Positions 1 to 50,200 of a stretch of 64,000 nt of DNA are shown here, piece by piece. The position numbers were made by a program, and so were the translations under genes. Under the pieces are notes generated by a model that did no database searches, was not told the origin of the DNA, and worked only from the letters and a program-made list of their open reading frames with translations. Origin of the DNA: Scleroderma bovista (taxonomy: Eukaryota > Basidiomycota > Agaricomycetes > Boletales > Sclerodermataceae); the NCBI GenBank assembly GCA_037178675.1, contig JAYMGJ010000578.1:1-64000 (forward strand), written 5' to 3'. How positions within the stretch are numbered: position 1 is the first letter of the stretch; each line of letters opens with the position of its first letter.

Positions 1-2
1 CC

Positions 3-572
3 CCTTGTGACCGATGCAGGCGGAGCGGCGACAGCGGTGGGTGCGAGCTGGCCGACAGAGCCCACACACCGACGTGTGGTCGGTGTCAACGATCTAAGGT
101 AAAGTGTACCTTCAACGTGTCGACGTCGGCGTTGGAATGGTTGGCGAGCGGAGAGAAGAGAAAACAGAGCGAGAAGGCGGTGGAGGTGGAAATGTCGCCG
201 AGAGGAGGCAAGAAGAGGAAGCGGACAAAGAAAATGATCGCCGAGGCCACGAGTACGGAGGAGATCGAGGCGGCAATGGGAGGATTCTTGGTGGCTGGGC
301 CATCGAGTCGACCAGACCCAGTCGCACTGGTCCTAGACCGCCGACTCGGGGAAATCGTTGCGGCGATTGACCGTAACACCAGAGAGCTGGCGAAGCTCAG
401 TGGAAAGGTGGAAGGGGTCACATGGGAGACGAAGAGGGTGGCTGACACTAAGGACCCGAAGGGCAAGGGCAAGGCGATGCCTGAGGAGAGCGAGGAGCAG
501 CGAGAGTCGGACGAGACGGACGGGGAAGGCGAAGAGTCGGGGGACGAAGACGGAGAAGGCGAGTCCGAGTAA
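3..572 (+). CDS. Antisense ORF of Gy-A with Zn2Cys6-like cluster (5' partial)
   Basis: The plus-strand frame is open from the window edge to a stop at 570-572. The stop is only 92 bp from the end of the minus-strand pol, so the two genes converge. The first visible codons encode six cysteines spaced C-x2-C-x8-C-x10-C-x2-C-x6-C, with a basic RCQRSKVKC segment as in fungal Zn2Cys6 DNA-binding domains (the first loop is two residues longer than usual). A lysine/arginine stretch (GKKRKRTKK), a possible amphipathic segment and a very acidic C-terminus follow. The true start is outside the window and an upstream intron is likely, by analogy with the Gy-C copy. I infer a nuclear DNA-binding or regulatory protein carried by the element. 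Its function is unknown. Confidence 0.62.
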   Translation, partial: PCDRCRRSGDSGGCELADRAHTPTCGRCQRSKVKCTFNVSTSALEWLASGEKRKQSEKAVEVEMSPRGGKKRKRTKKMIAEATSTEEIEAAMGGFLVAGPSSRPDPVALVLDRRLGEIVAAIDRNTRELAKLSGKVEGVTWETKRVADTKDPKGKGKAMPEESEEQRESDETDGEGEESGDEDGEGESE

Positions 573-664
573 TTAGACTGTACTTATAATTGTAATTAGT
601 TTTCTTTTTCTTTTTACTTTGTTTTCTACACTGCCAATAGACTTTGTTCGGTGACTTAGACAAC

Positions 665-3600
665 TCAGCATGAGAGGCTTTCTAAGGGGCCTGGCTTAGT
701 CGGGTAGGCCTTGTGGTAGTCGGCCACGAGTTCTGATGCGTGTCCGAGCTCGGTCGCGATTAACCAAGATGTTTCTTCATCAGTACCTTCGTAGCCAGCC
801 CATCTAACTAGGTAGAGGAGTGGGCATTGGCGTCGACGTTGGTCGATCTTTGAGTCGAGGATCTCGGTGATCTCAAACTCGGGTTCGCCGTTGACTTCGA
901 TGGGAGGTGGTGGAGGTTGTGACCGATTCGGTATTGTATTTGGTGTTGCTGGTTTGAGCTGTGAGACGTGGAAGACGGGATGGACAGCACGCATAGAGTT
1001 GGGGAGATGGATCGTGAATGATAGAGTGCTGACTTGGGCGATGATTGGGTAGGGACTGAGATTCTTCTCAGAGAGTTTCTTTGATGGTCGGGTAGACCTA
1101 AAGTACTTGGCTTTGACGAATACTTGATCACCGACTTTGAAATCGGGTGCGGGTGATCTTCTGGTGTCAGCAGGGCCTTGGTACCTTTTCTGAGCAGCAG
1201 CCATCTCTTCACGTAGGTACTCATGCAGTGACTCTAAGTCAACTGCGTATTCCCGTGCCCGAGCCGACGAGAGGTCGCGCTTGGGGTGCACAGCGAGGTT
1301 CGGGTGATATCCTTTGTTCGCGAAGAACAGTGATACACCAGTCGTAGCGCTAGGGGCATTGTTGTAGGCGAACTCGGTGAGAGGTAAGAGGTCCAACCAA
1401 TTGTCCTGCTGGTAGTTGCAGTACATCCTGAGGTATTGCTCGAGTGTTTGGTTAGCTCGCTCGGTCTGTCCGTCACCTTCTGGGTGATAGCCCGAAGTGA
1501 AATGTAATTTCATATCTAGGGCCTTACCAAGTGATCGGAAGAAATGCGAGACGAACTCTGAGCCTCGGTCAGACGTTACATGCACGGGGACGCCGTGCTT
1601 AGCGAAGACGTGTAGTAGGAAGAGCTGTGCGAGCTCGGGAGACGTTATTGTGTCATGAGTCGGGATGAATATGGCTTGCTTTGATAGTCGGTCAATGACT
1701 ACCAGAATGGCTGTGAAGCCGGATGAGGATGGGAGTTGCTCAATGAAATCCATCGAGATGGAGTTCCATGGTTGGTCGGGGACCGGTAATTGCTTGAGCA
1801 TCCCATAGGGTCGGTGACGTGGCGTCTTGGCTCGGGCGCAGGCCGTGCAGGACTTAACGTAGTCCTTTACGTAGGTACAAATGCCTGGCCATGTGTATTC
1901 GCAACGAATGAGCTCTAGGGTGCGGTTCTGACCGAAGTGTCCCGATAGGGGATGGTCATGCTTGTATCTGAGGACACGAAGACGTAAGTCATCGGCCTCG
2001 GGGACGTACATGCGGCCATCGAGACGTAGGTAACCAGTCTCATCGGTTGACCATCGGGGATTCGATGTGTCCGAGAGGTGGGCTTTAGCGATGGGATCGG
2101 TCGGGAGGTTGGCTAGGATATCGGCGTGGAGACGCTCGACGTCCATGAGTGCACTAGCTCTGAGTACTGGAGCGTGTAGGGATGTCGCACGAAGGGAATT
2201 GGTGAGCTGTTCAGCCGTGAACACCGGTCGGAGGTTCTGTGGATTGACTCGGGCGAAGCCCCTATCCCCCTCTTTGGGGTAGACGTCCCAGCGTCTAGTC
2301 AAGGCATCGGGCTTTGCACCAAGTTTACCAGGTCGGAAATGAATGATCAGGTTGAAAGAGGAGAGGTATTCCAACCATCGGGCTTGCTGACGGGTGAGAA
2401 CCTTAGAGGTGGAGAAATACTCCAAGTTTTTGTGGTCGGTCACGACGTCAATCAGGAAGGCAGGGCCCTCCAGATAATGACGCCAGGCCTTGAATGCTTC
2501 GAAAATAGCGAGAAGTTCCTTGTCGTGTGTATCATAGTTCAGCTCGGGCGTGGTTAGAGTGCGAGAGTAGAACGCAATCGGTCGTATCTCGTCATCCGAA
2601 CCTGTGATGGATAGGATACCGGCGATCGCGTAGTCCGAAGCGTCGGTCTCGACTGTCAGTTGGGCGCCTGGCTGGAAATGGGTAAGGATGGGAGCTGTGG
2701 TGAAGGCCTTCTTGAGTTGGTTGAATGACCATCGGCAGATGTCGGAGAAATCCCAGGGGGCATCTTTCCGTGTCAACCGAGTTAAGGGAACCACTATATC
2801 GGAGTAATTGAAGATAAATCAACGGTAAAAGTTCGCGAAGCCCAGGAAGGACTGAATGTCCTTCACCTTGTGAGGTTCGGGCCAATCGCAGATTGTCTTG
2901 ACTTTGTCTTGCGACATCGTCAAACCGTCGGGGGAAAGGAAGTACCCGAGGTACTCCACCGAGTCCGAATGGAACTCACACTTTTCGGGTTTGGCGTAAA
3001 GCTTGTGCTGGCGAAGTCGCCGAAGCACTTCCCGAACGTGTTCAGTATGGTCCTCCATGTTGTCCGAGTAGACTAAGATGTCGTCGAGGTAGACTACGAC
3101 GCAGACATCGAGCATGTCCGCGAAGACCGAGTTGACGAACCGCTGAAAGGCTGCAGGGGCGTTGGTGAGACCGAAGGGCATCACCTGCCACTCATACGAG
3201 CCATAGCGAGTCCTGAAGGCGGTTTTCCACTCATCACCTTCGGCAATGCGAACCAGATGGTAAGCATGTCTCAGGTTGATTTTAGTATAGACCTTTGCCC
3301 GACTCGGAGAGTTGAGTAGGTCGGAGATGAGAGGTAGAGGGTACGATCCTTCTTTGATATTTTGTTGAGTCCTCAGTAGTCGACGCAAAGTCGGAGAGAG
3401 CCGTCCTTCTTCTTGACGAAGAGGACAGGGGCTGCATGGGAGGATGAGGTCAGACGGATGAAACCAAAGCGAAGGTTTTCGTCGATGAATGCCTGAAGGG
3501 TTTCGAGCTCGACGGGGGAGAGAGAGTAGAGTCTTCCGGGTGGTAATGGCGCTCCTTCTTCCAGTTCTATCTTGAGGTCGTGTTCCCGATGAGGCGCGAG

Positions 3601-11221: not shown

Positions 11222-11858
11222 TGTCAAGTCCGGGTCTACTCCGGTAGGGGGTCCGGTCAAGTCCAGACGAAGGCAGACGAAGGAGGAGGGCAGAGGGCTG
11301 GACAAGGGATAGTCCAGCCAGAGTTGGTGACTGCTTGGATTCAATGACAAGGACGACGTGCATTGATCCCTTGTGTAGGTTCCAGTCAAGGTGATGATGA
11401 CGGAGACAGAGACAGAGACAGGGACAGGAGTAGTGACTATAGTTGATTTCGGACTAAGGAGGACAGGATAATCTACAGAGTACTTATACTAAGTGCAAAC
11501 TAGGAACAAGTATATATGGTGACAAGTAAACAGCCTAATGGTGGACAAAGGACGACTGGAGTAAGGGATAGATCAGGTCCGACAAAAATAAAGTCAGGTC
11601 CGATGAAAATAAAGCAGGTCCGGTGAAAATACTACAAGGTATGAGATATAACGAGTTCACGGAGAACTCACGTCAAGGCAGGGTAGACGGGCAAGTGTGG
11701 TAAAGACTGTATGCGGGCTAGACCAAGGGTCGTAGTTAGTGGAAGGTTATCTGCGCGACCGTTGACCGGAGTAACTGAGAACGACCGGAGTTGAGCTGTA
11801 GGACTGCGATGTGACCAGAGTAACCGGATAAGATCCGGAGTTGGACATGGTCATAACA
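11222..11858 (-). repeat. 3' LTR of Gy-C
   Basis: 637 bp with TG/CA ends, near identical to 18359-18996. On the plus strand it runs from TGTCAAGTCCGGGTC to GGACATGGTCATAACA. It is adjacent to the start of the antisense gene, so LTR sequence may supply part of that gene's promoter region. Confidence 0.9.
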
Positions 11859-11966
11859 GTATTCCCCTTTTAGGGGCCGAACCCATGAGGCCCCAACGAG
11901 GCTGATGTGTGGTCGCCTAAGACAATGCGGAGTCCGGAGTGAGTGTCTGAGTACGAAATTTGGATC

Positions 11967-11972
11967 TATAAA
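11967..11972 (+). promoter_or_regulatory. Possible TATA box of the Gy-C antisense gene
   Basis: TATAAA (in gatctataaagatcag) lies 51 bp upstream of the ATG at 12023 and 109 bp inside the LTR. The position fits a core promoter with a short leader. No experimental support. Confidence 0.4.
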
Positions 11973-12022
11973 GATCAGACCGGTTTTGCTTTTACCCCCA
12001 GTTTTCTGCCATCGATTTCAAC

Positions 12023-13091
12023 ATGTCTGGCACTGCTAAGTCCACCACCCCCATTGTCCCTTCCACGGTCGAGTCCAAGGACTGGACCAAGGCCCCAACA
12101 CCGGAGTTGCAATCCGGTAGCGAAGACGAGGCGGAAGTCCTCGACGCCAAAGCGAAGGAGCATTGTCGACATAAGCAAGTGAAGAGGGAGGAGAAGCAAT
12201 GGAGGGAAGAGGCAGAGAGGCGAGCGCGCAAAGAGGCGGAGGCAAGAGCTCGTGAGGAGGCGGAGCATGCTAAGGCGGAGGTGGAGTGGAAAGTGAGGGA
12301 GGAGGCGGAGCGTCAAGCGTGGGAGCAAGCGGAGAAGGACAGGGCGGAGGTGCAGTGGAGGGCTGCAGAGGTTGCAGCGAGGCAGAGGGCGTTGGCGCAG
12401 GAAGCATCAAAGAAAAGAGCGAGGGAAGAGCCGGAGGCGGGTCCGAGTGATGACCAGAGCGACAACATCCGGTAAGTAATTTATTTCTTCCTTTATGACT
12501 TTTTATTAACCTCCTGGCAGGTGCATTCGTTGTGCCAAGCACAAGGCCAAGTGCGAGCGGGACCCTGAAAAGCCCAAGCAACATGCGTGCATGAAGTGCG
12601 CCGGACTCAAGGAGCAGTGCAAGTGGCCGGAGGTGGGAGGTCCGGGTCCGGTAGTGGACAAAGGGAAGGGCAAGGCGAAGGAGGTTGCAACGTTGCCGCG
12701 AGGAGGGGAGAAGCGGAAAAAGAAGAAGACGGTCACGAAGGTCGTCGACGATGACGACATCGTCGAAGTACCGGGGCCGTTGGGGAAACGGTCTGGGTTT
12801 GACCCTGGGCCATTCCTGGACCGGTTGGACCGGTTGACCGGAGCAGTGGAGGAGATGACCGGTCAGATGCGCCAGGTCACGGATGCCACCCGCTCTGTGG
12901 CCAAAGGAAACGAGCGGCTGACGGCCGGCCTTGAGACCTTCCTCGAGGAATGCCATTTCTTCACGGCGCCTTGGGATGAGGACAAGGAGTCGGAGGACAG
13001 CGAAGTGGAGGTCGACCCAGAGGAGGTCAAAAAGGAAGTCCAGGGGCTCCAAGAGGAGCAAGAGAACCCTGGCAGCGGTGTGCCGGAGTAA
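12023..13091 (+). CDS. Antisense gene of Gy-C: Zn2Cys6-like, coiled-coil protein (2 exons)
   Basis: Exon 1 is 12023-12471 and exon 2 is 12521-13091. The 49-nt intron starts GTAAGT, ends CAG and has an attaac branch-like site. Splicing joins the frames into 339 codons and creates the first cysteine pair at the junction. Domains seen: N-terminal Ser/Thr/Pro-rich part, a long Arg/Glu/Ala helix with coiled-coil character (about residues 45-135), then C-x2-C-x6-C-x11-C-x2-C-x6-C (about residues 151-184), which fits the fungal Zn2Cys6 consensus. A basic patch (EKRKKKKT), a second likely helix (FLDRLDRLTGAVEEM) and an acidic tail follow. The stop lies about 160 bp from the original pol stop on the other strand, so the genes converge. 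Unlike its neighbours gag and pol, the frame shows no stop. A DNA-binding regulator is the natural guess, but no target is known. Confidence 0.75.
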
Positions 13092-13248: not shown

Positions 13249-16200
13249 CTACATGGACACGAGTGGTCCGGGTTTGTGTAAAGCAACTTGCATGTTTTGC
13301 GTCAATGGTCAACCTTGGAGTCGAGGATCTCAGAGATCTCGAACTCCAGTTCACCATCTACTTCAACCGGTGGCGGAGGAGGCTGTATCTGGTCTGGTAT
13401 GGTGTTGGGTATGGCCGGTTCGAGTTGGGAGACATGGAAGATGGGGTGAACTGCGTGCATGGAATCTGGAAGATGGAGCGTAAAAGAGAGGGAGCCTACT
13501 TGTGCAATGATAGTGTAGGGCCCCAGGTTCTTCTCTGATAGTTTTTTGGATGGTCGAGTTGACCGGAAGTACTTGGCTTTAACATATACTTGATTGCCTA
13601 CTTGGAAGTCCGGTGCCAGAGTACGTTTGGCATCAGCCGGACCTTGGTAGTGAAGTTGTGCATTAGCCATTTCTTCATGAAGGTATTGATGCAGTGACTC
13701 GAGGTCGACTGCGTAATCACGAGCCCTAGCGGAGGTCATGTCGCGTTCTGGGTAGACAGAGATGTTAGGGTGATAGCCCTTGTTAGCAAAGAACAGAGAG
13801 ACTCCGGTGGTAGCACTTGGTGCGTTGTTGTAAGCAAACTCCGCCAGTGGGAGTAAGTCCGCCCAGTTGTCCTGCTGGTAGTTGCAGTAGATCCAGAGGT
13901 ACTGTTCCAGCGTCTGGTTAGACCGCTCTGTCTGGCCATCGCCCTCTGGGTGGTAACTGGAGGTGAAGTGGAGGCGCATGTCAAGGGCCTTTCCAAGTGA
14001 CCGGAAGAAGTGAGAGACAAACTCTGTACCATGATCCGACGTGACATGGGCGGGAACACCGTGCTTGGAGAATACGTGGAGCAAGAAGAGTTTTGCGAGC
14101 TCCAGGCTAGTGATGGTGTTGTGAGTAGGGATGAAGATGGCTTGTTTAGAAAGCCGGTCTACTACAACCAGGATGGCTGTGAAGCCGGTGGATGAAGGGA
14201 GTTGCTCGATGAAATCCATTGAGATGGAGTTCCAAGGTTTCTCCGGTACGGGGAGCTGTTTCAGCAGTCCGTAGGGTCTGTGGTGTGGTGTCTTAGCTCG
14301 TGCGCAAGAGGTACATGACTGGACGTAATCCTTGACGAAGGTCCGGAGACCAGGCCAAGTATACTCACGCTGGATTAGCTCTAGAGTCCGGTTTTGCCCA
14401 AAGTGACCAGCGAGTGGGTGATCATGTTGATACCGGAGTACCCAGAGACGGAGGTCATCCAAGTCCGGTACGTATATGCGACTGTCTAGTCGGAGGAATC
14501 CAGCCTCATCTGTGGACCAGCGAGAGTCTGGTGGATCTGCGAGGTGGACCTGGGCAATGGGATCAGAGGGTAGTGTGGAGAGGATGTCGCTATGGAGTGT
14601 TTCCATGTCCATGATTGCGACTGCACGGAGGACCGGAAACTCCAGATAAGTAGTGCGAAGAGAGTTAGAGAGCTGTTCTTGAGTGAACACCGGCCTAAGA
14701 TTTTGGGGGTTAACCCGGGCGTAGCCACTATCCCCCTCTTTGGGGTAGACGTCCCATCGTCTAGTGAGAGCGTCAGGCTTGGCACCGAGCTTACCAGGGT
14801 GGAAGCGAATGACAAGATTAAACTGAGATAAAAATTCAGACCACCGGGCTTGCCGGCGGGAAAGTACTTTTGAGGTAGAGAAGTACTCAAGGTTTTTGTG
14901 GTCCATGACGACGTCTATGGGAGCGGCGGAGCCTTCTAGATAGTGGCGCCAATTCCGGAAAGCCTCGAAGATGGCGAGGAGTTCTTTATCGTGGGTGTCG
15001 TAGTTCAACTCCGGAGCAGTCAAAGTCCAGGAGTAGTATGCGACCGGACAAATCTCTCTGTCAGCGCAAGTAATAGACAAGATGCCAGCGACAGCGTAGT
15101 CGGAGGCGTCAGTTTCCACGATGATAGGGGTATCTGGAATGAAATGGGTGAGGATGGGCGCAGTGGTGAAGGCATGCTTGAGAGCATTGAAGGAACATCA
15201 ACAGTCCTCAGAGAAGTTCCAAGGAGCGTCTTTCCGGGTGAGCTGGGTAAGAGGGACCACAATGTCCGAGTAGTTGAATATAAACCGGCGGTAGAAGTTG
15301 GCGAAGCCCAAGAAGGACTGGATGTCCTTAACCTTTCGAGGTTCAGGCCAGTCGGAGATGGTCTGGATTTTGTCCGGAGACATAGTCAAACCGTCAGGAG
15401 AGAGGCGATAGCCAAGGTACTCTACCGAGTCCGAGTGGAACTCGCATTTCTCCAGTTTGGTGAAGAGGCCATGTAACTGGAGTCGGCGGAGAACTTCCTG
15501 GATGTGCTGCTGGTGGGACTCCATATCCTCAGAGTAGATGAGGATGTCGTCGAGGTACATGACGATGCAGACATCCAGCATGTCAGCAAAGATGGTGTTG
15601 ACAAAACACTGGAAGGCTGCTGGGGTGTTAGTGAGGCCGAAGGGCATGACTAACCACTCGTAGGACCCATAGCGTGTGCGGAAGGCAGTTTTCCATTCAT
15701 CGCCCAGAGCAATCCAGACGAGATGGTAGGCATGCCGGAGGTCGATCTTGGAGTAGATTTTAGCATGGCTAGGTGAGTCTAATAGGTCAGAGATAAGGGG
15801 GAGTGGATAGCGGTCCTTTTTGGTAATTTTATTAAGGCCTCGGAAGTCAATGCAGAGGCGGAGCGAGCCATCCTTCTTCTTTACAAAGAGGACCGGAGCA
15901 GCGTGGGAGGAAGCGGTAGGATGGATGAAACCTGTATTAAGATTCTCATTGATGAAAGTCCGGAGAGCAGAGAGCTCAACTGGAGACAGTGAGTATAATG
16001 TTCCCAAAGGTGGGGAAGTACCTTCTTCAAGGTTGATCTTCAAGTCGTAGTCGCGATGTGGGGGAAGTTCAGAGGCTTTCGCCTTGCTGAACACATCCAC
16101 GTAATCATGATACTCCAGGGGGATGATGTCCAAGTCCGGCGGAGTAGAGGCGGAGGAAGAGTGAGCCTTTGCCGAGTCAGAGGGATGCAGCTGCAGTTGG

Positions 16201-16835
16201 TATTTGGTGGATCCCTCTAACTTGCACGCACGCACGAATGCGGCTGCGTTAATCAGAGAGATGTGCAGAGGGGTGCAAACCGGAGTGTCGACAGATGGCG
16301 CAAAGCCAGGGTCAGATTGGCCGGGGAGGCTGGAGACAGGGTTACCAGGCAGAACCGGAGAGGGAGTCGACGGGGGAACTAGCAAACTTTTTGCAGGGGT
16401 CCAGAATGTTAAACTGCTCAGTACCCAGTCAATCAACAGATTGTAGCGGGTGAGCCAGTTATGTCCAAGGACAATCGAGCAGTCAGAGTCTAACGGAGCG
16501 AGATAAAAGGTCATAGGGGTGACATCACCGGATGCAGGGAATTTCACTGATAAATCGATGGCTTGAGTGATTACAAAATTCAAGGTACCGTCAAAGAGCC
16601 GGAGTACAATCGGAGAAACGGAGTAGGTGGTAATATTGTTTTTGTGCGCGAATTGTACATCTACAAAGCAATGTGTGGACCCAGAGTCCACAAGTGCGTG
16701 GGTTTTAGGTAAGTCAAATGATAAGAGGATAACATGTGGCATAAGGGAGTTAGGATCGTAAAGAGCGGACACGTTGAGGCGGGCCTCCTTGGGTGCACTT
16801 CTGGAGTCAACGCAGCTCACTGGTTGTGCGGAGGG
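13249..16835 (-). pseudogene. pol: Gy-C pol: protease, RT, RNase H, integrase; chromodomain deleted
   Basis: The upstream frame (16820-15198) holds protease (LVDSGSTHCFVD, LGHNWLTRYN) and RT with intact YLDD at 15546-15557. After a TGA at 15198-15200 (Arg in Gy-A) the frame continues with RNase H (ETDASDYAVAGIL) and integrase: HHCC finger (AGHFGQNRT, CTSCARAK), D,D-35-E (SMDFIEQ, TSDHGTEF, GDGQTERSNQ). A stop at 13302-13304 precedes the tail. Compared with Gy-D, about 115 bp encoding most of the chromodomain (LVRWSGYEGTDEETSWL) are missing, with the last codons (NPDHSCP in a shifted frame) fused directly. The product would polymerise and integrate element cDNA. The chromodomain would normally tether integration to marked chromatin. 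Confidence 0.9.
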
Positions 16836-18358: not shown

Positions 18359-18996
18359 TGTCAAGTCCGGGTCTACTCCGGTAGGGGGTCTGGTCAAGTC
18401 CAGATGAAGGCGGACGAAGGAGGAGGACAGAGGGCTGGACAAGGGATAGTCTGGCTGGAGTTGGTGACCGCTTGGATTCAATGACAAGGACGACATGCGT
18501 TGATCCCTTGCGTAGGTTCCGGTCAAGGTGATGATGACGGAGACAGAGACAGAGACAGGGACAGGAGTAGTGACTATAGTTGATTTCAGACTAAGGAGTA
18601 CAGGATAATCTACAGAGTACTTATACTAAGTGCAAACTAGGGATGAGTATATACGGTGACAAGTAAACAGCCTAATGGCGGACAAAGGACAACCGGAGTA
18701 AGGGATAGATCAGGTCCGACGAAAATAAAGTCAGGTCCGATGAAAATAAAGCAGGTCCGGTGAAAATACTACAAGGTATGAGATATAATGAGTTCATGGA
18801 GAACTCACGATCAAGGCAGGGTAGACAGGCAAGTGTGGTAAAGACTGTATGCGGGCTAGACCAAGGGTCGTAGTTAGTGGAAGGTTATCTGTGCGACCAT
18901 TGACCGGAGTAACTGAGAACGACCAGAGTTGAGCTGTAGGACTGCGATGTGACCGGAGTAACTGGATAAGATCTGGAGTTGGACATGGTCGTAACA
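18359..18996 (-). repeat. 5' LTR of Gy-C
   Basis: 638-bp partner of 11222-11858. On the minus strand it is followed by the gag ATG 70 bp inside. No TGG-type tRNA primer site is visible right after it (the next bases are GTATTTCAGACTC), so priming may be unusual in this family. Confidence 0.9.
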
Positions 18997-23272: not shown

Positions 23273-23569
23273 TTACTCCAGCACAGCGCCGCCAGGGTTC
23301 TCTTGCTCCTCTTGGAGCCCCTGGACCTTCTGTTCGACCTCCTCTGGGTCGACCTCCAGCTTGCTGTCCTCCGACTCCTCGTCCTTGTCCCAAAGCGCTG
23401 TAAAAAACCAGCACTCCTTGAGAAAAGTCTCGAGGCCCGCCATCAGCCGCTCATTCCCTCTGGCCACCAAACGGGTGGCATTCACGACCCGGCACATCTG
23501 ACCGGTCATCTGTTGAAGTTGCATGTGCACCCGGCGTAAACTGTCGACGAAGTGCGCACAAGACTGCAA
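23273..23569 (-). pseudogene. Antisense gene of Gy-D, C-terminal part
   Basis: The minus-strand frame of 99 codons matches the C-terminal third of the Gy-C antisense protein (QMTGQM, GNERL-x-AGLETFL, FFTA-x-WD, QGLQEEQENPG). It ends about 160 bp from the pol stop, in convergent orientation as in Gy-C. The upstream part with the cysteine cluster is cut off where Cop-G begins near 23570. The open frame with many substitutions relative to Gy-C suggests past constraint on the protein. Confidence 0.7.
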
Positions 23570-40890: not shown

Positions 40891-42116
40891 TGTAGAGACA
40901 CCCGGGTCTCTAGGCGCACAGCTCCCTAGCTGTCACACCCTAAGCCCTGTGAGAGACCCACCTAGACGCGCCCCTGCGCCTGTCCACTTGCATCTGTTCG
41001 ATCGCATCACACCCGACTCGCTCGCGCGAGTGCATCCGTGGCTGCTGCGCGCCCGATCACTCGCACGGGTGTAGTCGCGACTCGTCTCGCATCGCACTCG
41101 ATCACGTCACGTCCAACCTGCTCGCATTCTCTCTCGTGCAAGTGTATCTGCGGCTGCTGTGCACCCAATCGCTCGCACGGGTGTAGCCATGACTTGACTC
41201 GCAGACCACCCGATCGCATCCCGTCCGACCCGCATGCTCGCCCGTCCACTCGCATCTGTTCGATCGCGTCACACCCGACTTGCTCGCTCGTGCGAGTGCA
41301 TCCGTGGCTGCTGTGCGCCCGATCACTCGCACAGGTGAAATCGCGACTCAATGCACAGACCACCCGAACACTTGCCCAAGCTCAAGTAGGACCCGACTCG
41401 ACCACCCTCGCTCACTCGCACGCAAACGCAACCACCCGCGACCCTGTTAAGCTGTTCCGGTCCTCCCTCTTTTGTACACTTCGCGTCATGGGTACGTGTT
41501 CGCGCCCGTCTCCCTTGCTGGAGTTTCCCACTTCTTTATGTCATCTGTTGATGCTCGGGTGCCTGTTACTCGGTTGTGGACCCTTTTCGTTATGTCAGAT
41601 AGTGCCAGAGTGCGCACCATTTCCCTTATTTAGACTAGAGTTACCGCTTAGACGCGCTTGGAGCGCTACAGTGTTTCCTGACCCTTATGTTCCGTACATT
41701 GGTCCTAGGGCCACATATACCTTACCCTGGAAGAATGCAACATTCTTTTTCTCCCCCTCATAGCAAGAGTAAGAGCCCCAGCTTCTACGTGAGGTTTCAG
41801 TTTGTTCAAGGTCTCATCGTCGCATCTTATCGTATTCGCTCGTTTCGTCGTATCGTTTCGTCTTTCGCCGTGTGTCCCTCACTTTCGCATACGTCTCTCC
41901 TCCGCTCTCTAGGGAACTCTCTAGGCTTTTGACCAGAGCGCTCCTCGCGCTCTCTCGTCCACTCTCTTTTCCACTGCGCTGCTCGTCACACCCCACCCCT
42001 TGCTAGTCCGAGTGCTCTGTGCACCTTCCTTCGCTTTTCCGACTCTACCAGTTTGAGCCAGACCCAGTTCCCTTGGGCGGACCTGTTTTGCACCCTTCCG
42101 GAACTAACCTTCTACA
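40891..42116 (+). repeat. 5' LTR of Gy-N (1,226 bp)
   Basis: TGTAGAGACACCCGGG to ACCTTCTACA. Nearly identical to 50213-51936 apart from array length: it has three units of the 112-bp-type repeat (ggctgctg at 41040, 41152 and 41306) against seven in the 3' LTR. Confidence 0.95.
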
Positions 42117-42146: not shown

Positions 42147-44756
42147 GATCTGGCTCGAAGATCCTCTTGCCTGTTAGAACAAAATCCTGAGCTTGCGCAG
42201 CTCATAGGTGCCTTCCGCAACCTCGACTTGGGCAACCAGTCAGACTTTTTCATACCCTTGTCAACCCCTAGTACCAGTTCCCCTTCAGATACAGTTTCTT
42301 CTAGTCGTTCTCGGTCGCCACCTTTTCCTGAAAACTTTACTATTGACGAGCCTTTCCATCCACCTTCTCATTTGCAGTCCTTGAGCTCACTCTCGAGCGT
42401 CTCTTCGCTTCAGTTCTCTTCAAATTATATTACTCCCGCTCGCCCTTCCCCGTCTAGAAATACCCCTTCGCGTACTTACTACTCCACTCACGCTACGCAG
42501 ATGGCACCTCAACCGATGCCAGCTCGAGGATCCTCCAAGGCTCCTAAGTTCGAAGGCAACCCGGAGGATCTTTTACGCTTCTTCGAGGATGTCGAGTTCC
42601 TGTGCGAAGACGCAGAAATAGATGCAGGACCCAATAAAATCAAATGGGCAGTTCGATATGCCAGTCGCGAGGAGGCGGAGCTGTGGGCTGTCTTGCCGGC
42701 ACGTGCTGGAAGTGACTGGGACGACTTCAAGGAAGAAGTCCTAGCATTCTACCCAGGAGCTAAGGACGACGACCGCAAGTACTCACGTGCGGACCTGGAT
42801 CGTATCACAGCAGCCCAGGCAGAAGTCCCTATGATTTCGCGCGCAATCCTTGGTGAGTACATTCGCAAGTTCACTATAGTAGCGACGTTCCTCGAAAAGA
42901 AAAAGAGGCTCTCTAAAGGAGAGTGTGAAGACAAGTTCATGGAGGGGTTCCACCATACGTTTAAGGCGCAGCTTTTGAACAGGCTCACCTTAGCGTACCT
43001 GGACCACTTCCCTGACGACCCATGGCCTACTGACAAGGTTATTTTCCATGCCTCCTTCCTGTTAGCAGGGACGTCTAGGCCCACCCCCGGAAGGGTAACC
43101 GCCTCGCCTGAGCCGCGGTCTACAAGTGTGCCGGCGCCTACTGTTATCAAGAAGGAGTACTACAGCACAGGTTCTGCTTACACTCCTGCCCCTGCCGCCC
43201 ATGTGCCTGTTTTCGCAGGGAGCCTGCCACCGCAAGCGTCATACGTACAAGCAGCGGGAGGTCCGGCTCAGTACCGAGAGAACCCCTACTGCTACTTCTG
43301 TGGAGGTACCGATGGTCATAGGATGAACTATTGCGCAGTATGCCTGGAGTATGTCCAGACCGGGAAATGCCAACGCAGGACTGGACGCATTTACTTAGCC
43401 GACGGGTCAGAGATTTCGATGGGACTACCAGGGAGGACCCTAAAGGAATGTGTCGACAACTGGCTGGCCATGCGCCAGACAACTGTAGGCCCGCTCGTGC
43501 CAGAGAAACCAACCGCCCAGACGGCTGCACAAACCCAGCGCTTCGACCGCGACACTCCTCCACATATGGCAAACACCATGTTCTTCGGTCTCGAGCCTGT
43601 AAGCGAATGGCAGCTAGATATCCATCCGTCTTCCTATATGGTCGACGAGGATTCCAACGGGGATATCGACGACGAAGATCGACAAGCGCTCGCTCGCGCC
43701 TATGCCCAGGTTGAGGAGGTGCACAGCACAATTCGGAAGAAGAAGCAGGTGCGCTTTGATGGGGTAGAGGTACCAACACGCCGCCCGGCAGCAGGTTCAT
43801 CGAAGAACGCCACGACTACGGTTCCAGAACCCTCCGCTTCTTCCTCACGGACTTCACAAGTTCTGCAGCCCGAGCCAGTAGTGTCCACGGTGGCCCCTCA
43901 ACAGAAATCGTCGGGTACGAATACTAGCGCGCCTACAAGCACGAGTGCCTCAGGTTCTGTCCCGAACAAACAGTCAGGAGCCTCGCAACCACAGTTCAAA
44001 TACCAGAGCCCAATGGAAGACCCCGCAGTTGCCCAGAAGCTCTTGGAAAGGCTGCTGGACGTGCAGGTTACTGTGTCAGCCCGCGAGTTGCTATCCATCT
44101 CAATAGATATGCGCAAGATGGTGCGCGAGTTGGTGGCGACTAAACGGGTGTCAGTCGCAAGTCTGGAAACCAATCCTACACCCGCCTCCGACCTCTGGCT
44201 CGAGTATGAAGAGTTCATAGTAAGAGACGACGAAGGTTTGGTAGTGGCAAGGACTTCCCTTCCGCTATGGGCGCTCGATGGCACACTCAATGATCGCTTA
44301 CGCGTAGAGTGTCTGCTGGATCAGGGGGCACAGATTGTTGCAATTAGGCGCGATCTCTGGGAAGCGCTGGGAGTTCCTGTATGTCCAGACCTGGCTACCA
44401 CCCTCGAGGCAGCCAACAAGTCCAAAGAGGATACCCTCGGAGTAGTGGAGAATGCTCGGTTAAAGATCGGAGGCATAGAGTTCCGACTCCAGATTCATGT
44501 GGTAGGAGACGCACCATTTGATATTCTTTTAGGCCGACCGTTCTTCGCACTTGCGAGCTGTGTCACCCGCGACCAGATGTCCGGTGACCAATCGGTAGCA
44601 CTCACTGACCCCAACTCGGGGATTCAGCTTATGATGCCCACACGACAGCGCTCGCGACCTTCCCGAGAGCCGCGCTTTTTGCGCGACGAGGACGCAGAAG
44701 AGCATCGCCACCGGCGCTGTGGGGCTTATACCCTCCAAATAAGCCAGGGTTTTTAG
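42147..44756 (+). CDS. gag: Gy-N Gag-protease
   Basis: The frame is open from 42147 (after a TAG) to TAG/TAA-type stop at 44754-44756. No ATG occurs before 42501 (MAPQPMPARGS), so translation starts there or at a non-ATG codon. Seen: Ser/Pro-rich start, capsid core (APKFEGNPEDLLRFFEDVEF onward), knuckle CYFCGGTDGHRMNYC (C-x2-C-x5-H-x4-C, one residue longer than usual) near 43291, a long linker, then a retropepsin-like protease: VECLLDQGAQIVAIRRDLW and FDILLGRPFF. The active triad reads D-Q-G instead of D-S/T-G. The last 148 nt overlap pol, which is in the -1 frame. That suggests pol expression by -1 frameshifting, or reinitiation. Confidence 0.85.
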   Translation, partial: DLARRSSCLLEQNPELAQLIGAFRNLDLGNQSDFFIPLSTPSTSSPSDTVSSSRSRSPPFPENFTIDEPFHPPSHLQSLSSLSSVSSLQFSSNYITPARPSPSRNTPSRTYYSTHATQMAPQPMPARGSSKAPKFEGNPEDLLRFFEDVEFLCEDAEIDAGPNKIKWAVRYASREEAELWAVLPARAGSDWDDFKEEVLAFYPGAKDDDRKYSRADLDRITAAQAEVPMISRAILGEYIRKFTIVATFLEKKKRLSKGECEDKFMEGFHHTFKAQLLNRLTLAYLDHFPDDPWPTDKVIFHASFLLAGTSRPTPGRVTASPEPRSTSVPAPTVIKKEYYSTGSAYTPAPAAHVPVFAGSLPPQASYVQAAGGPAQYRENPYCYFCGGTDGHRMNYCAVCLEYVQTGKCQRRTGRIYLADGSEISMGLPGRTLKECVDNWLAMRQTTVGPLVPEKPTAQTAAQTQRFDRDTPPHMANTMFFGLEPVSEWQLDIHPSSYMVDEDSNGDIDDEDRQALARAYAQVEEVHSTIRKKKQVRFDGVEVPTRRPAAGSSKNATTTVPEPSASSSRTSQVLQPEPVVSTVAPQQKSSGTNTSAPTSTSASGSVPNKQSGASQPQFKYQSPMEDPAVAQKLLERLLDVQVTVSARELLSISIDMRKMVRELVATKRVSVASLETNPTPASDLWLEYEEFIVRDDEGLVVARTSLPLWALDGTLNDRLRVECLLDQGAQIVAIRRDLWEALGVPVCPDLATTLEAANKSKEDTLGVVENARLKIGGIEFRLQIHVVGDAPFDILLGRPFFALASCVTRDQMSGDQSVALTDPNSGIQLMMPTRQRSRPSREPRFLRDEDAEEHRHRRCGAYTLQISQGF

Positions 44757-47700
44757 AGAGCGGGGAGCATGGTTCACAGGACACGCGCATCCGAGTGCTG
44801 GATCATGCGACTCCCCGCAAAACTGTGGTATGTAATATATCGGAATCTTCTCCCTCTCCATCTATCTCTTCGGACCCTTTCAACCGAAGCTTCGTCCTTC
44901 CTTCTGACCCGTTTCTGTTCTCTACTTCATCTTCGCTCTCGCCCCCTGTCATTTCGGCTCTGCGGAGCTCGTTCTTCTATGACCATGTCACGCACGTGCT
45001 TAAATACAAGCCGGTTGCGAGAAAAATTAAACCAATAGCGTCTGCTACTCCTCCCGAATTCCGGGTTGAGCGCTTCAGGGTTGGCGACCCTCTGGCAGAC
45101 CTACCCGCTCTTCCTACTGACCCTCCAGAGTTCTTACCAGGCAAGCGGCTGACTGCCGAACGAGCAGAAGCGTTTGAGGTCGACCCCGCAGGGTTCCTGT
45201 GGCCACAGGAGCGCAAGCTAGTGTTATGGCTAGTCCGCACCCACGAAGAGGCTTTCGCTTGGGAAGTATCTGAGCGCGGAACGTTTCGCGAGGATATGTT
45301 CCCACCCCTGAAGATCCCAACGACAGACCACAAGCCCTGGGTCCATCGCAACATCCCGATTCCACCCGCGATTTACCCAGAAGTAGTGCGCATTATCAAA
45401 GAAAAGATCTCGGCCGGTGTGTATGAACCCTCTACTTCTTCTTATCGCTTGCGATGGTTCTGTGTGGTCAAGAAGGACGGGAAGTCGCTGCGACTGGTGC
45501 ACGACCTGCAGCCTCTCAATGCAGTCTCCATCCAGGATGCGGCGGTTCCCCCGTTCGTCGAGACTATAGCAGAGGCCTTCGCAGGGCACTCTGTCTTCGG
45601 AATCCTTGACCTCATGGTTGGCTATGATCATCGAACCATCCATGAGGATTTCCGCGACCTTACTACCTTCCAATCCCCTGTAGGGTCTTTGCGACTCACC
45701 AAACTCCCTATGGGCTACACTAACGCTGTCCAGATATTTCACGGGGACGTGTGTTGGATCCTACAGGAGGAGATATTGGACGTCACTGTCCCTTTCATTG
45801 ATGACTGCCCCGTAAAAGGGCCTAAAACGCGCTACGAGAGACCTGACGGGTCGTACGAGACAATTCCCGGAAACCCCGGGATCAGGCGCTTCATTTTCGA
45901 ACACCTAACAAATATGAACCGCGTGCTGCAGAGATTAAAGCATGCAGGTGCTACGGTGTCTGCCAAGAAATTCGTTCTGGCGGCACCATCTATAGTGGTA
46001 GTGGGACACAAAGTGTCGTATGAGGGACGTGTCCCTGACAAGTCCAAAGTCCAGAAGATACGAGATTGGCCCTATTGCACTAACGTGACAGAGGTCCGAG
46101 GGTTCCTAGGACTCTGCAGCTATTGTCGAATCTTCATCAAAGACTTCGCAAAGCATGCCCGACCTCTGGTCGAACTAACGCGCAAGGACGCTCCATTTTT
46201 GTTTGAAGATAGGCAACGCGAATCCATGGATTACCTCAAGCACGCAATCATCTATTCGCCAGCGCTCCAACCTATCAATTACGAGAGCGATCTGCCGGTG
46301 ATCCTAGCCGTCGACACCTCTAGTATAACGGTGGGGTATGTCCTCATGCAGCTAGACGAAGAGGGGCGACGCTACCCTGCGCGATTCGGGTCAATCTCCC
46401 TGAACGACCGTGAGCGGAGGTATAGCCAAGCAAAACTCAAGCTTTTCGGGCTCTTCAGGGCGCTACGAGATGTGCGCTTATACATCTTCGGGGTCAAGCG
46501 GTTAGTCGTGGAGGTAGACGTGCGCTACATAAAAGGGATGATCAACAATCCCGACCTGCAACCTAACGCGACGATCAACCGCTGGATAGCCGGCATTCTC
46601 TTATTTTCATTTGAGCTAACACATGTTCCAGCAGATAGGCATGCGGCGCCAGATGGTCTATCGAGACGCCCGCCGGCTCCTGAGGACCCACCACCAGCGG
46701 ATGACTACGAAGACTGGGTCGATGACTGCGGAGCATTTGCCATAGAACTCTTTAATAGGCGAACCCCGGGTCATTTGACGCGTATCATGTCCCCCTTTTC
46801 ATTTTTCTCAGTCCTTCGCAGCCAGAACAGAGCTGACGGATCCTCTCCGACAGGTACTCCGGATGTCACCCAAGCAGAGGCCCCCCTGCCTCAGGCCGAG
46901 CCTCTGATACCGAGGTCGGACAAAGTGCGCGACATGGATGACCGCCTGGAGCAGGTCCGCGAGTTCCTAACCTCAGAAAGTCGTCCGAGCGCGCTGTCCG
47001 ATCAAGAGTTCGAGGCTCTCGTCCGTCGTGCCATACGCTACTTCTTGCGCAGGGGCAAGCTATGGCGCAAAGAGCGTGGCGGACGACACCAGGTAGTTGC
47101 ACGTCCGCACAAGCGCTACTCCCTTATGAAGGAAGCGCACGACGAGCTAGGCCACAAGGGCGCGTTCTCTGTGCGCTCTCGTCTTCTCGTACGCTTCTGG
47201 TGGCCCATGCTGGAGCAGGATGTGAAGTGGTATGTCCGAACATGTCACGAATGCCAAGTGCGTCGGATGGACAAGTTGCACGTCCCTCCAGTTGTCGCTT
47301 TGCCTCAGCCTCTCTTCTACAAGGCGTATATGGATACATTCCTAATGCCGAAGTCGGGTGGTTACCGATACGTCACCCAGGCTCGCTGTTCTCTCACCGC
47401 ATACCCAGAATGGCAAATGCTTCACTCCGAAACGGGGAAGGCAATCGGGAGGTTCATTTTCGAACACATCCTGTGTCGGTGGGGTGCCGTAGGGGAGATC
47501 GTTACAGACAATGGCAGTCCATACGTTCTGGCGCTCGATTGGCTCGCGGAAAAATATGGTATCCGTCACATCCGCATCTCTCCTTATAACGCACAGAGCA
47601 ACGGAGTTGTAGAGCGGCGTCATCGGGACGTACGCGAAGCGCTCGTGAAGAGCTGTGCTGGAGAGGCATCCCGGTGGTCTGAATTCGCGCATTCGGTCTT

Positions 47701-48304
47701 CTGGGCTGAACGTGTCACCACGCACAAGGCAACCGGGTTCTCGCCCTATTACATGGCGCACGGAGTGGAGCCCCTACTCCCCTTTGATCTAGTGGAAGCG
47801 ACGTTTCTGGTCCCTGTCGACTCCCTAGAGATGACAACCATGGAGCTGATCGCCCACAGGGCGCGCCAGTTGCAGAAGCGCCCAGAGGACCTGGCACGTA
47901 TCCACGAGCGGGTCCTCCAAGCCCGCTACACATCTGCAAAGCATTTTGCTGAGCAGTATAGACGAACAATGAAAGACTTCGACTTCGTACCTGGTGCGCT
48001 AGTCTTAGTTCGTAATTCGCGCGTCGAACACGAGCTGGATCGGAAGACGAAGCCTCGGTACCTGGGTCCCATGGTCATCGTAAGGCGCACGCGTGGTGGC
48101 TCCTATATCCTGGCCGAGTTGGACGGTTCTGTCTCCAAAACATGGTATGCAGCATTTCGACTTCTCCCGTATTATCCACGTTCCAGCGAACGCATCACCG
48201 TGACTCATCTGACCGGTCTCTCCGACCATGAACTAGATAAAGCCATCGACGAATCCCTCCCTGAACCCAAGGAAGAAATGTTCCCCGAGGACCTAGAGGA
48301 CTAG
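44609..48304 (+). CDS. pol: Gy-N Pol: RT, RNase H, integrase
   Basis: The open frame begins at 44609 inside gag (-1 frame). The clear protein starts near 44795 and runs 1,169 codons to TAG at 48302-48304. RT motifs: ILDLMVGYDHRTIHEDFRDL (motif A with Asp), LPMGYTNAVQIFHGDV, and catalytic FIDDCPVKGP at about residues 334-337 (F replaces the usual Y, as in Gy-H). The RNase H part has AVDTSSITVGYVLMQ and RRYSQAKLKLFGLFRAL. Integrase: HDELGHKGAFSVRSRLL and CHECQVRR finger, catalytic D in MDTFLMPK, D in VTDNGSPY, E in NGVVERRHRDVREAL, and a C-terminal KPRYLGPMVIVRRT segment. No chromodomain. It copies and integrates the element. All catalytic residues are present. Confidence 0.93.
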   Translation, partial: PQLGDSAYDAHTTALATFPRAALFARRGRRRASPPALWGLYPPNKPGFLESGEHGSQDTRIRVLDHATPRKTVVCNISESSPSPSISSDPFNRSFVLPSDPFLFSTSSSLSPPVISALRSSFFYDHVTHVLKYKPVARKIKPIASATPPEFRVERFRVGDPLADLPALPTDPPEFLPGKRLTAERAEAFEVDPAGFLWPQERKLVLWLVRTHEEAFAWEVSERGTFREDMFPPLKIPTTDHKPWVHRNIPIPPAIYPEVVRIIKEKISAGVYEPSTSSYRLRWFCVVKKDGKSLRLVHDLQPLNAVSIQDAAVPPFVETIAEAFAGHSVFGILDLMVGYDHRTIHEDFRDLTTFQSPVGSLRLTKLPMGYTNAVQIFHGDVCWILQEEILDVTVPFIDDCPVKGPKTRYERPDGSYETIPGNPGIRRFIFEHLTNMNRVLQRLKHAGATVSAKKFVLAAPSIVVVGHKVSYEGRVPDKSKVQKIRDWPYCTNVTEVRGFLGLCSYCRIFIKDFAKHARPLVELTRKDAPFLFEDRQRESMDYLKHAIIYSPALQPINYESDLPVILAVDTSSITVGYVLMQLDEEGRRYPARFGSISLNDRERRYSQAKLKLFGLFRALRDVRLYIFGVKRLVVEVDVRYIKGMINNPDLQPNATINRWIAGILLFSFELTHVPADRHAAPDGLSRRPPAPEDPPPADDYEDWVDDCGAFAIELFNRRTPGHLTRIMSPFSFFSVLRSQNRADGSSPTGTPDVTQAEAPLPQAEPLIPRSDKVRDMDDRLEQVREFLTSESRPSALSDQEFEALVRRAIRYFLRRGKLWRKERGGRHQVVARPHKRYSLMKEAHDELGHKGAFSVRSRLLVRFWWPMLEQDVKWYVRTCHECQVRRMDKLHVPPVVALPQPLFYKAYMDTFLMPKSGGYRYVTQARCSLTAYPEWQMLHSETGKAIGRFIFEHILCRWGAVGEIVTDNGSPYVLALDWLAEKYGIRHIRISPYNAQSNGVVERRHRDVREALVKSCAGEASRWSEFAHSVFWAERVTTHKATGFSPYYMAHGVEPLLPFDLVEATFLVPVDSLEMTTMELIAHRARQLQKRPEDLARIHERVLQARYTSAKHFAEQYRRTMKDFDFVPGALVLVRNSRVEHELDRKTKPRYLGPMVIVRRTRGGSYILAELDGSVSKTWYAAFRLLPYYPRSSERITVTHLTGLSDHELDKAIDESLPEPKEEMFPEDLED

Positions 48305-48665
48305 AAGACCCTTTCCTCACATCATCACGCAGGTCTCTCAGTTTTCGTCTTTTGGTTCTTGTTCTTTTCTGTCTCCTCTCTTCATTCTCTTCGGACCTTG
48401 TTTTTTTTTCCCTCGCACAAGGACTTTCTGCCGCTAGCGTTCGCTTTCTTTTTCTTTCTTTCCTTCTCTTCCTCGCTCCCTGGACTACCAGTACATGTTC
48501 CTCAATTTCATACACACGTCGTGGATATAATCCCGTTCAACCCTTCTATGGTACATGGACTTATAGGGGTCCGAAACGACCCAAGAAAAGACTTAATAGC
48601 AATGCATATACGGATACTGCCTTCGGTCGCGCACAACGCGCACCTACTGTACGATACGGTCTCAT
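48305..48665. other. Gap between convergent pol and antisense gene of Gy-N
   Basis: 361 bp with no gene. It is rich in pyrimidine runs (ttttttttccctcgc, ctttctttttctttctttcc) and is where transcripts from both strands would end or overlap. Confidence 0.6.
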
Positions 48666-50044
48666 TTACTGTTCCCTCTTTCCTCTCTTGTTACTGAAAA
48701 GGCGGAGCTTGTGTTGAAGGTCCCACAGCACAGCCTGGATGTCCACATGCTCGCGCATCAGCCTGGCTTGGCGTTGGCTGATGTCGTCCAGCGAGTCTTG
48801 GAGGTCTGCGATGTCGTAGTCCTCAGAGGAGCGACGCGGAAGGGTGACGGAACAAGACGGTCGAGGTGGAGAGGCGGGGAGCGCAGAACGGACGCGCTTG
48901 AGAGGAGGCGAAACCTTCAGTCGCAAGTCAGGGGCGGACACCAGTGGGACGGGTACAGCTGTCCCCTCCGATTCTGCAACAGGGGACAGAGAAGCGGGCG
49001 ATGGTGTGGAAGGAGAGGGAGTCGCCGACTGGCGTGCTAGCTTTCCAGGAAGGCGGATGGTAGGACGAGCTGTAGGGGCGACCGTACCAGCGACCTCGCG
49101 CTTGCGCTGTCAGGCATCAGTAGGCGCCAACTCTAGTGCTCGCGTCACTCACCTTCTGCTTAGTTTTCGGACCCGCGCCCTTCGCGACGTTAGAGCACCC
49201 GTGACGTTGCGTTTTGCATCGCGCACACCCACCGGTAGTAGGCCCAGTACAGATCGTACCTCCCTCGACACAGTGCGCGCAGGGGCGTTCAGGGTAGGCA
49301 ACAGCAGCCATCTGCTGCTCGTTCGTCTGGTCGTAGTCCACCTCCTTCGCGATCGTTATCACGGGACTGCACAAGTGTGGGGGAGACTCACCTTTAAGTT
49401 TCCGTCAGCCCCTCGGATCGTAACGCGGCAGAAGTGAGCAGACCCGGGTCTTGCAGAGACAGGTGGGCGCTTGATAAGAATCTACCTGCATTAGTTGCAT
49501 TTCAGAACACGGTATAACGACGTACCTCCACTACGGGTTTGGCAGGAGCCTTGCTGCGACGCCCAGTTGCTTGGCCCTTCGACGTCCCTTCTTCGCTGCG
49601 AACGGCGGATGCCCCCTCAGCCACGGTCGACCGCGTTTGGTCAGGGACGGCAGCCGCGGTAGGATGGAGCGTCGAGTCAAGGAGGTGCTTCACTGAGTCG
49701 GCATGCGCAAGCTTCTTTGAAGACGCTGACCAGGCCAGCCGGTAACTTAGATAGAGCGACGCCAGCCTTGCTCGCTGCTGCTACGGTGTCCTCAACGCCA
49801 CGCTGACAGATCGCAGTCAGCCACCCGAACGCTCGCGGTTATGATTGCTATCTACCTTAGCCGCCCGCCAGTTGCGAATGTACGTGGCAGCGTCGACGTC
49901 TTCCGGGTCGTCGTGCGGAACGGGTCTCCCTGCAATCTCTGCCTTGTCAAGCACCTCTCGCCAGCGGGTTTCGATCTCTTGCTCGTCAGAGGGTGTAAGG
50001 GTGAGGGACTTGAGAGAAGCGAGAAAGATGTTGCCGTGAGACAT
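48666..50044 (-). CDS. Antisense gene of Gy-N: five-exon Zn2Cys6-like protein (~387 aa)
   Basis: Proposed exons on the minus strand: 50044-49856, 49777-49526, 49481-49392, 49344-49153, 49106-48666. Donors read GTAGAT, GTACGT, GTGAGT, GTGAGT. Introns are 44-78 nt and every joint is phase 0, giving 63+84+30+64+146 codons. Acceptors 1 and 3 have alternatives in the same frame (49780 and 49326). Exon 4 encodes C-x2-C-x6-C-x7-C-x2-C-x6-C (CAHCVEGGTIC and CARCKTQRHGC), exactly the fungal Zn2Cys6 spacing, followed by a basic stretch. Exon 5 holds a Ser/Pro-rich part and a helical C-terminus (DIADLQDSLDDISQRQARLM) that may form a coiled coil. It converges with pol. An upstream ATG at 50131 is also in frame. 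Likely a nuclear DNA-binding protein. Function unknown. Confidence 0.72.
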
Positions 50045-50200
50045 GGCTGTCGAAGAATGAAGGTAGGGGAGGACGGGCGTGAAGATGGACGCGGCGGACG
50101 AAGGGACAATAGGGAGGACATGCGCTGACACCCTTTTACATGCTTTTCAAGCGAGGCGCTGATTAAGCAAGTACGTGACCAGGGACGGTCACATTCTGAA

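Follow-up and report, generated by a model that had tools for sequence, protein, structure and literature searches.

A conserved antisense gene with a Zn2Cys6-like cysteine cluster in Gypsy elements of Scleroderma bovista, a candidate element-encoded regulator

Introduction

In plant Gypsy elements of the Retand lineage, antisense open reading frames with a TRP28 domain (PF04195) are found in nearly all clusters of the lineage; in the available text of that report they are predicted to bind DNA and proposed to be regulators, with function unknown, and the words "intron" and "zinc" have no occurrence in its main text (PMC11963269). In human T-cell leukaemia viruses (HTLV), HBZ of HTLV-1 and APH of HTLV-2/3/4 are described as antisense, spliced genes at the 3' end, and HBZ as a transcription-factor-like protein that regulates transcription from the long terminal repeat (LTR) (PMC10186651, available text). 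In VANDAL/Hiun DNA transposons, VANC is described as an accessory factor that frees its own element from silencing (PMC6446971, available text). Here we analyzed a stretch of 64,000 nucleotides (nt) from the fungus Scleroderma bovista (positions 1 to 64,000 of contig JAYMGJ010000578.1, GenBank assembly GCA_037178675.1; hereafter the window), which is the start of its contig, and searched the genome (51.8 Mb) for copies of what it holds. Three Gypsy elements of the window, Gy-A, Gy-C and Gy-N, carry a gene behind pol, on the opposite strand, that encodes a Zn2Cys6-like array of six cysteines, and a fourth, Gy-D, keeps a remnant of such a gene. In the open-licence literature, we found no report that joins an antisense gene of an LTR element and a Zn2Cys6 domain in fungi.

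Results

Three six-cysteine arrays lie antisense to pol

In a six-frame translation scan with the pattern C-x2-C-x6-8-C-x5-12-C-x2-C-x6-8-C, we found three arrays in the window, at +6 (Gy-A), +12522 (Gy-C) and –49281 (Gy-N), and there were none in the six frames of 200 dinucleotide shuffles of the window. The arrays lie where a first-pass annotation, made from the sequence alone, had placed them. The consensus spacing of Zn2Cys6 proteins is C-x2-C-x6-C-x5-12-C-x2-C-x6-8-C; Gy-C and Gy-N follow it, and Gy-A follows it loosely, with x8 for x6 in the first repeat. All three arrays are found between pol and the 3' LTR on the strand opposite pol, which ends before the antisense gene, so the orientation that had been claimed is seen in each element, and the LTRs of Gy-C and Gy-N place the gene within the element. 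Gy-A begins at base 1 of the window, and its exon 1 is missing there because the contig starts at that point; exon 1 is present in copies elsewhere, where it is followed by a GT-AG intron; in copy L010 its first residues are MSAGNNNTDW.

The Gy-A/Gy-C gene has two predicted exons

When we compared copies, the splice signals indicated that the antisense gene of Gy-A and Gy-C is genuine and made up of two exons with one GT-AG intron between them, the splicing being predicted. The intron starts with GT and ends with AG in 28/28 Gy-C loci and 28/29 Gy-A loci, the sole exception (L037) being rearranged, and its length is 42–62 nt in 26 Gy-C introns and 51–62 nt in 28 Gy-A introns. The predicted intron also supports the antisense strand as the coding strand. 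An intron on this strand can survive retrotransposition, because the sense RNA is unable to splice it. In the stretch that separates the polypurine tract from the ATG, there is a TATA-like box 45–72 nt upstream of the latter. A match to the strict pattern is found near the position of the window's TATAAA in 27/28 Gy-C loci; in Gy-A, only 13/28 loci have the strict pattern, and one copy (L019) has a variant box in the same place.

The gene is under purifying selection in both families

To compare copies, we calculated the ratio of nonsynonymous to synonymous substitution rates (dN/dS) by the Nei-Gojobori method from the 30 best matches per search, a sample that leans towards copies resembling those of the window and in which pairs of copies are non-independent. 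Gy-A exon 2 has a median dN/dS of 0.161 (30/30 copies; ratio of means 0.158), as compared to 0.152 for Gy-C exon 1 (23/30 loci, the others having no usable exon; ratio of means 0.152) and 0.098 for Gy-C exon 2 (28/30; ratio of means 0.101). For Gy-A exon 1, the corresponding ratio of proportions of differences (pN/pS) is 0.165 (26/29 loci). Further downstream in these loci, on the pol strand, the medians are 0.138 (Gy-A) and 0.064 (Gy-C), with ratios of means of 0.221 and 0.130; the pol stretch used was the longest frame open in the 1.5-kb flank, and it is not clean everywhere (L058 has pol pieces in two orientations). Neutral time following insertion raises such values rather than lowering them. 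The antisense genes of Gy-A and Gy-C are under strong purifying selection and have a conserved coding function across copies. The first-pass annotation had named neutral dN/dS and a lack of conservation of the cysteines in other copies as grounds for refutation; dN/dS is well below 1 across copies of both families, and all six cysteines are invariant in 30/30 Gy-A and 28/28 Gy-C best-matching copies.

When all six frames were compared in three exons, pN/pS was lowest in the gene frame every time (0.13–0.20). Next comes the complementary frame, which has its third positions in common with the gene frame (0.24–0.33), and the remaining frames are at 1.3–2.5; sense-strand frames over the antisense gene have higher pN/pS and more numerous stops. 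Within Gy-C exon 2, the helix (pN/pS 0.065) and the cluster (0.097) are most constrained and the linker (0.195) and the tail (0.252) least. In Gy-A, constraint is strongest in the tail (0.129), and the cluster (0.223) does not stand out.

The gene belongs to Gy-A- and Gy-C-type elements

The Gy-A exon has 93 genome matches, the four weakest of which sit on Gy-C-type copies, and the Gy-C exon has at least 150 (the best 150 of 286 candidates). By eye, 54/93 Gy-A and 109/150 Gy-C rows among the matches listed are free of stops. In decayed copies of both genes the stops are mostly TGA, a pattern compatible with C-to-T decay of methylated targets or of targets like those of repeat-induced point mutation.

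Linkage to pol was counted for the Gy-C type, in 131 scored of 841 candidate pol copies. The antisense gene is found at most 1.5 kb downstream in 106/131 of these copies, and a gene on the same strand in 0. When we sampled 8 of the 25 gene-negative pol copies, 5/8 had a diverged copy or remnant: two had a gene of a third subfamily (L083, L086), one a broken copy and two a C-terminal remnant, and three had nothing detectable. Gy-D of the window is also among the 25, and its remnant matches the C-terminal part of the Gy-C protein, as had been annotated. The antisense gene thus belongs to Gy-A/Gy-C-type elements. The third-subfamily gene of L083 and L086 sits behind a closely similar pol and is 50–53% identical to Gy-C and 90–91% identical to protein P0035; the L083 cluster is of the CVRCTKFGVQC type.

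A search of 5.8 billion proteins gave 50 relatives for the Gy-C exon and 101 for the Gy-A exon, almost all of them unnamed and with source contigs from jgi or ena. Six relatives, all found with the Gy-A exon, do have a name and are listed as Scleroderma citrinum hypothetical proteins. Of these six, two (P0124, P0130) join exons 1 and 2 about as modelled here and have the six cysteines complete; in the remaining 4/6 gene models, the array is partly or wholly absent.

Between Gy-A and Gy-C, the antisense proteins are 29–32% identical, as compared to 80–89% for the integrase end of pol (4 comparisons). Because of this difference, the accessory protein seems to follow something family-specific such as the LTR. 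Among Gy-C sub-families (L076, L077 and L078 against window positions 12023–14204), synonymous divergence of exon 2 is 2–6 times that of the integrase end in 5/5 comparisons, which suggests recombination or module exchange among sub-families; a close Gy-C pair with L040 shows the reverse pattern.

The protein is Zn2Cys6-like in spacing and weakly so in profile

Alignment of the Gy-A and Gy-C protein profiles (hhalign 96.6%, E 5e-10) indicates that the two proteins are homologous and represent one common gene. They have in common the six cysteines, a PRGG-(E/K)-KRK basic motif, a C-terminal helix and, by eye, an N-terminal DW..A.(S/T)PEL motif. A basic stretch has 11–12 K/R per 32 residues.

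The Pfam profile Zn_clus (PF00172; curated cut-off 21 bits) scores 15.1 bits with the whole Gy-A exon, below the cut-off, and 21.0 bits, equal to the cut-off, with the isolated 46-amino-acid (aa) domain; 15/16 Gy-A members match it weakly at E ≤ 1, with a best E of 0.0018. In Gy-C, the isolated 55-aa domain scores 16.8 bits, below the cut-off, and the C-terminal 166 aa, a piece without the first four cysteines, did not match. No whole protein of Gy-A, Gy-C or Gy-N is above the PF00172 cut-off, and the Retand domain TRP28 (PF04195) was not among the Pfam matches, whether the scan was run at E ≤ 1 or at E ≤ 10. The profile match that the first-pass annotation had proposed to look for is therefore weak in Gy-A and Gy-C, and it is absent in Gy-N.

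The two AlphaFold2 (AF2) models have low confidence over the cysteines and conflict there, with short helices in Gy-A and strands in Gy-C. With Foldseek, the Gy-C model matched a single PDB entry at E ≤ 10, Leu3, and the Gy-A model matched two, GAL4 and PUT3; all three are Zn2Cys6 proteins. At E 1.2–4.4, from models of low confidence at the cluster, none of these matches is significant, and we regard them as supportive, not conclusive. Taken together, the spacing, the invariant cysteines and the dN/dS values support a Zn2Cys6-like cluster in a conserved antisense gene of Gy-A and Gy-C.

CGG motifs are enriched in the Gy-C LTR

CGG half-sites are the usual Zn2Cys6 target. In the Gy-C LTR, CGG on both strands is found 24 times as compared to 14.4 expected (2/500 shuffles as high) and CCGG 16 times as compared to 3.2 expected, which for this palindrome means 8 sites; both motifs were picked after reading. 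The same LTR (11222–11858) is also enriched in CCGGAG. For Gy-A, we took the 850 nt that precede the gene in copy L010, where the LTR borders are unfixed, and there CGG is only weakly enriched (26/500 shuffles). CGG enrichment is absent from both spacers (Gy-A and Gy-C).

The Gy-N gene is probably a separate acquisition

Gy-N has two copies in the genome, which are 97% similar, and the gene of the second copy and that of the window copy differ in length in the second predicted exon. There are 9 synonymous and 8 nonsynonymous differences between the copies (pN/pS 0.30), and 17 differences give little power. The Gy-N gene has more predicted introns than the Gy-A and Gy-C genes, and its protein has no significant profile match to theirs and no significant similarity to them beyond the motif; in the Pfam scan, there was no Zn_clus match in Gy-N. 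A solitary relative on another part of contig C20, L074 (G000:C20:74000–80500, minus strand 4431–3091), is 31% identical and retains the six cysteines, and the surrounding 6.5 kb shows no similarity to Gy-N at the nucleotide level. It is possible that L074 is the donor of the Gy-N gene or a domesticated escapee. By eye, L074 adjoins a frame resembling transporters of the major facilitator superfamily (MFS). A search with L074 found three more relatives (89, 69 and 33% identity); among the relatives from this search, P0154 has an array with x7 as its last spacing and P0153 begins after the array.

The first-pass annotation had held the trait to be either ancient or acquired more than once. Gy-A and Gy-C point to one gene; for Gy-N, a second acquisition is favoured because of the lack of a detectable relation to Gy-A/Gy-C, the other predicted exon structure and the solitary relative, and the Gy-N gene is probably a separate acquisition of a similar protein.

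Further features of the elements and the window

Gy-C is a complete insertion (11222–18996) with both LTRs, which are 94.7% identical, and GCCAC target-site copies. Its pol is broken into two frames (13302–15119 and 15198–16820), and in the Pfam scan there was no Chromo match for this copy; by eye, another Gy-C copy (L040) has a chromodomain-like pol end. In Gy-A, the chromodomain scores 24.1 bits, slightly below the cut-off of 25.1. The two Gy-N LTRs have a 1140-nt core that is 98.6% identical, and repeats 112 nt apart (50311–50834 and 40977–42116) are more numerous in the 3' than in the 5' LTR region. The Gy-N gag-protease frame (42228–44756) has DUF4100 (PF13352). At 35057–35685, there is a direct repeat with 170-nt spacing, seen as three overlapping 289-nt matches of 95–100% identity.

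Table 1. Coordinates of the features in the window
Feature	Position	Strand	Basis or remark
Gy-A antisense gene exon 2	3..572	+	Open frame, genome matches, median dN/dS 0.161
Gy-A six-cysteine cluster, C-x2-C-x8-C-x10-C-x2-C-x6-C	6..107	+	Pattern scan
Gy-A pol (RNase H, integrase, SH3_Tf2-1, chromodomain)	665..2794	-	Pfam scan
Gy-C 3' LTR	11222..11858	-	5-bp target-site copy GCCAC at 11217-11221, by eye
Gy-C polypurine tract adjoining 3' LTR	11859..11880	-	End approximate
TATAAA upstream of Gy-C antisense ATG	11967..11972	+	Pattern match
Gy-C antisense gene exon 1 (charged; resembles a coiled coil by eye)	12023..12471	+	Median dN/dS 0.152, 23 copies
Gy-C antisense gene predicted GT-AG intron	12472..12520	+	Conserved splice signals
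Gy-C antisense gene exon 2	12521..13091	+	Genome matches, selection, cysteine conservation
Gy-C six-cysteine cluster, C-x2-C-x6-C-x11-C-x2-C-x6-C	12522..12620	+	Pattern scan, conservation across copies
Gy-C basic motif PRGGEKRKKKK, common with Gy-A (PRGG-K/E-KRKR)	12696..12728	+	Like a nuclear localization signal (NLS) by eye
Gy-C predicted long helix, possible dimerising coiled coil	12807..12965	+	AF2, mean per-residue confidence (pLDDT) >90 over most
Gy-C pol pieces (protease, reverse transcriptase (RT), RNase H, integrase)	13302..16820	-	Pfam scan
Gy-C 5' LTR	18359..18996	-	GCCAC at 18997-19001; borders by eye
Gy-D remnant of Gy-C-type antisense gene	23276..23551	-	67% identity, last 92 aa of Gy-C protein
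Gy-N pol	44795..48304	+	RT identity 26% to Gy-C over 272 aa, 22% to Gy-A
Gy-N antisense gene, several predicted introns	48666..50044	-	Open frames, gene prediction
Gy-N six-cysteine cluster, C-x2-C-x6-C-x7-C-x2-C-x6-C	49195..49281	-	Pattern scan
Gy-N 3' LTR, approximate ends	50213..51936	+	Internal 112-nt repeats; 5' LTR about 40891-42116

Discussion

We favour, with barely better than even confidence, the reading that the antisense gene encodes a dimerising nuclear DNA-binding regulator of the element's own LTR transcription, and that Gy-N acquired its gene separately. In Gy-A/Gy-C-type elements, a promoter of the gene's own, located after the polypurine tract and before the ATG, would drive an antisense transcript that would be spliced once; the splice sites and the TATA-like box are indirect signs of such a transcript, as the CGG and CCGG enrichment of the Gy-C LTR is of DNA binding. 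The product would begin with a charged N-terminal part and then carry a binuclear zinc cluster of the Zn2Cys6 type, a basic stretch resembling an NLS, a long helix and, at its end, an acidic tail. After entering the nucleus and dimerising via the helix, the protein would use its zinc cluster to bind DNA sites in the LTR and 3' promoter of its own element and adjust sense transcription, much as HBZ, which is similarly placed, does in HTLV-1. Expression of the gene, its splicing, zinc binding, dimerisation, DNA binding and the direction of its effect are what we infer from sequence, and the protein may steer transcription, that of the element or of the host, as the first-pass annotation had suggested. 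A further idea, which we put forward tentatively and at less than even confidence, is that there were at least two independent uptakes of an antisense Zn2Cys6 regulator, which would be a private switch for each family, with a DNA specificity that changes with the LTR as pol stays near-constant. Such a switch would be a fungal counterpart of HBZ, one for which fungi drew on a class of transcription factors of their own.

Instead of a classical transcription factor, the protein could be an anti-silencing factor that, in the manner of VANC in plants (PMC6446971, available text), would bind copies of its own element and remove or block cytosine methylation or repressive chromatin there; this is an unlikely alternative but the strongest of those we considered. 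It would likewise have to be nuclear, DNA-binding and element-specific, and a family-specific binder is expected to diverge while the integrase end stays alike, as found between Gy-A and Gy-C. TGA-dominated stops may also fit methylation-driven C-to-T decay. Known anti-silencing domains are, however, absent from the Pfam scans, and the present evidence does not separate an anti-silencing factor from a transcriptional regulator.

Nearly as likely as that is a replication accessory, a zinc nucleic-acid-binding protein that would serve the element RNA or integration complex (export, packaging, targeting) and not promoters. The basic stretch next to a cysteine cluster and the presence of the gene behind most scored Gy-C-type pol copies (106/131) fit such a role. 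The six-cysteine spacing is, however, that of a binuclear cluster and not of CCHC knuckles, the usual zinc motif of retroelements, and antisense expression would decouple the protein from the gag-pol RNA.

We consider it very unlikely that the gene is a host transcription factor gene captured by the elements and still in a host programme. The solitary L074 beside its MFS-transporter-like frame hints that capture or escape may happen in the Gy-N lineage, but the Gy-A and Gy-C genes are multicopy, those of the Gy-C type are at a fixed place behind pol, and 0/21 genome matches to Zn_clus (E ≤ 0.001) coincide with the listed Gy-A/Gy-C exon matches. Antisense open frames are frequent in GC-rich genes and a 338-aa sense-strand frame overlaps the Gy-C gene, but an artefact, in which the codon bias of a sense gene would keep the opposite frame open and the cysteines would be there by chance, is rejected for Gy-A/Gy-C by dN/dS, by the six-frame pN/pS and stops, by the empty shuffles and by an intron that behaves as an intron, the Gy-N test having little power (17 differences).

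If the preferred reading of an LTR regulator is true, Gy-A/Gy-C-type elements, two large families, may control their own activity via an antisense gene, and the six Scleroderma citrinum hypothetical proteins are accounted for. An antisense gene of this kind in fungal Gypsy elements, spliced, selected and transcription-factor-like, would point to the same layout having been reached by LTR elements in different kingdoms, and it would offer a tractable system for the balance of sense and antisense expression in an LTR element.

The likeness to VANC is that of an element-encoded accessory factor; VANC belongs to a DNA transposon of Arabidopsis (PMC6446971, available text). As in Retand, the antisense frame is found between pol and the 3' LTR, is widespread in its lineage and encodes a putative DNA-binding protein, a proposed regulator; in contrast, Retand is a plant, non-chromovirus lineage with another protein domain (PMC11963269, available text). 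As with HBZ, there is a 3'-end antisense gene, spliced (here by prediction), for a transcription-factor-like protein; in contrast, HBZ is a basic leucine zipper (bZIP) protein of a vertebrate virus and the fungal gene encodes a zinc cluster, and HBZ is expressed from the 3' LTR whereas the fungal TATA-like box is inside the element, beyond the polypurine tract (PMC10186651, available text). The six-cysteine spacing followed by basic and helical segments is like that of GAL4, PUT3 and Leu3 in the Zn_clus family; unlike fungal Zn2Cys6 factors, the protein is element-encoded, its cluster is in mid-protein behind a charged N-terminal part, and its sequence match is below threshold. Thus, the layout is known from plant Retand elements and from HTLV HBZ/APH, and the domain is known from fungal Zn2Cys6 proteins; what appears to be new is their combination in fungal Gypsy elements.

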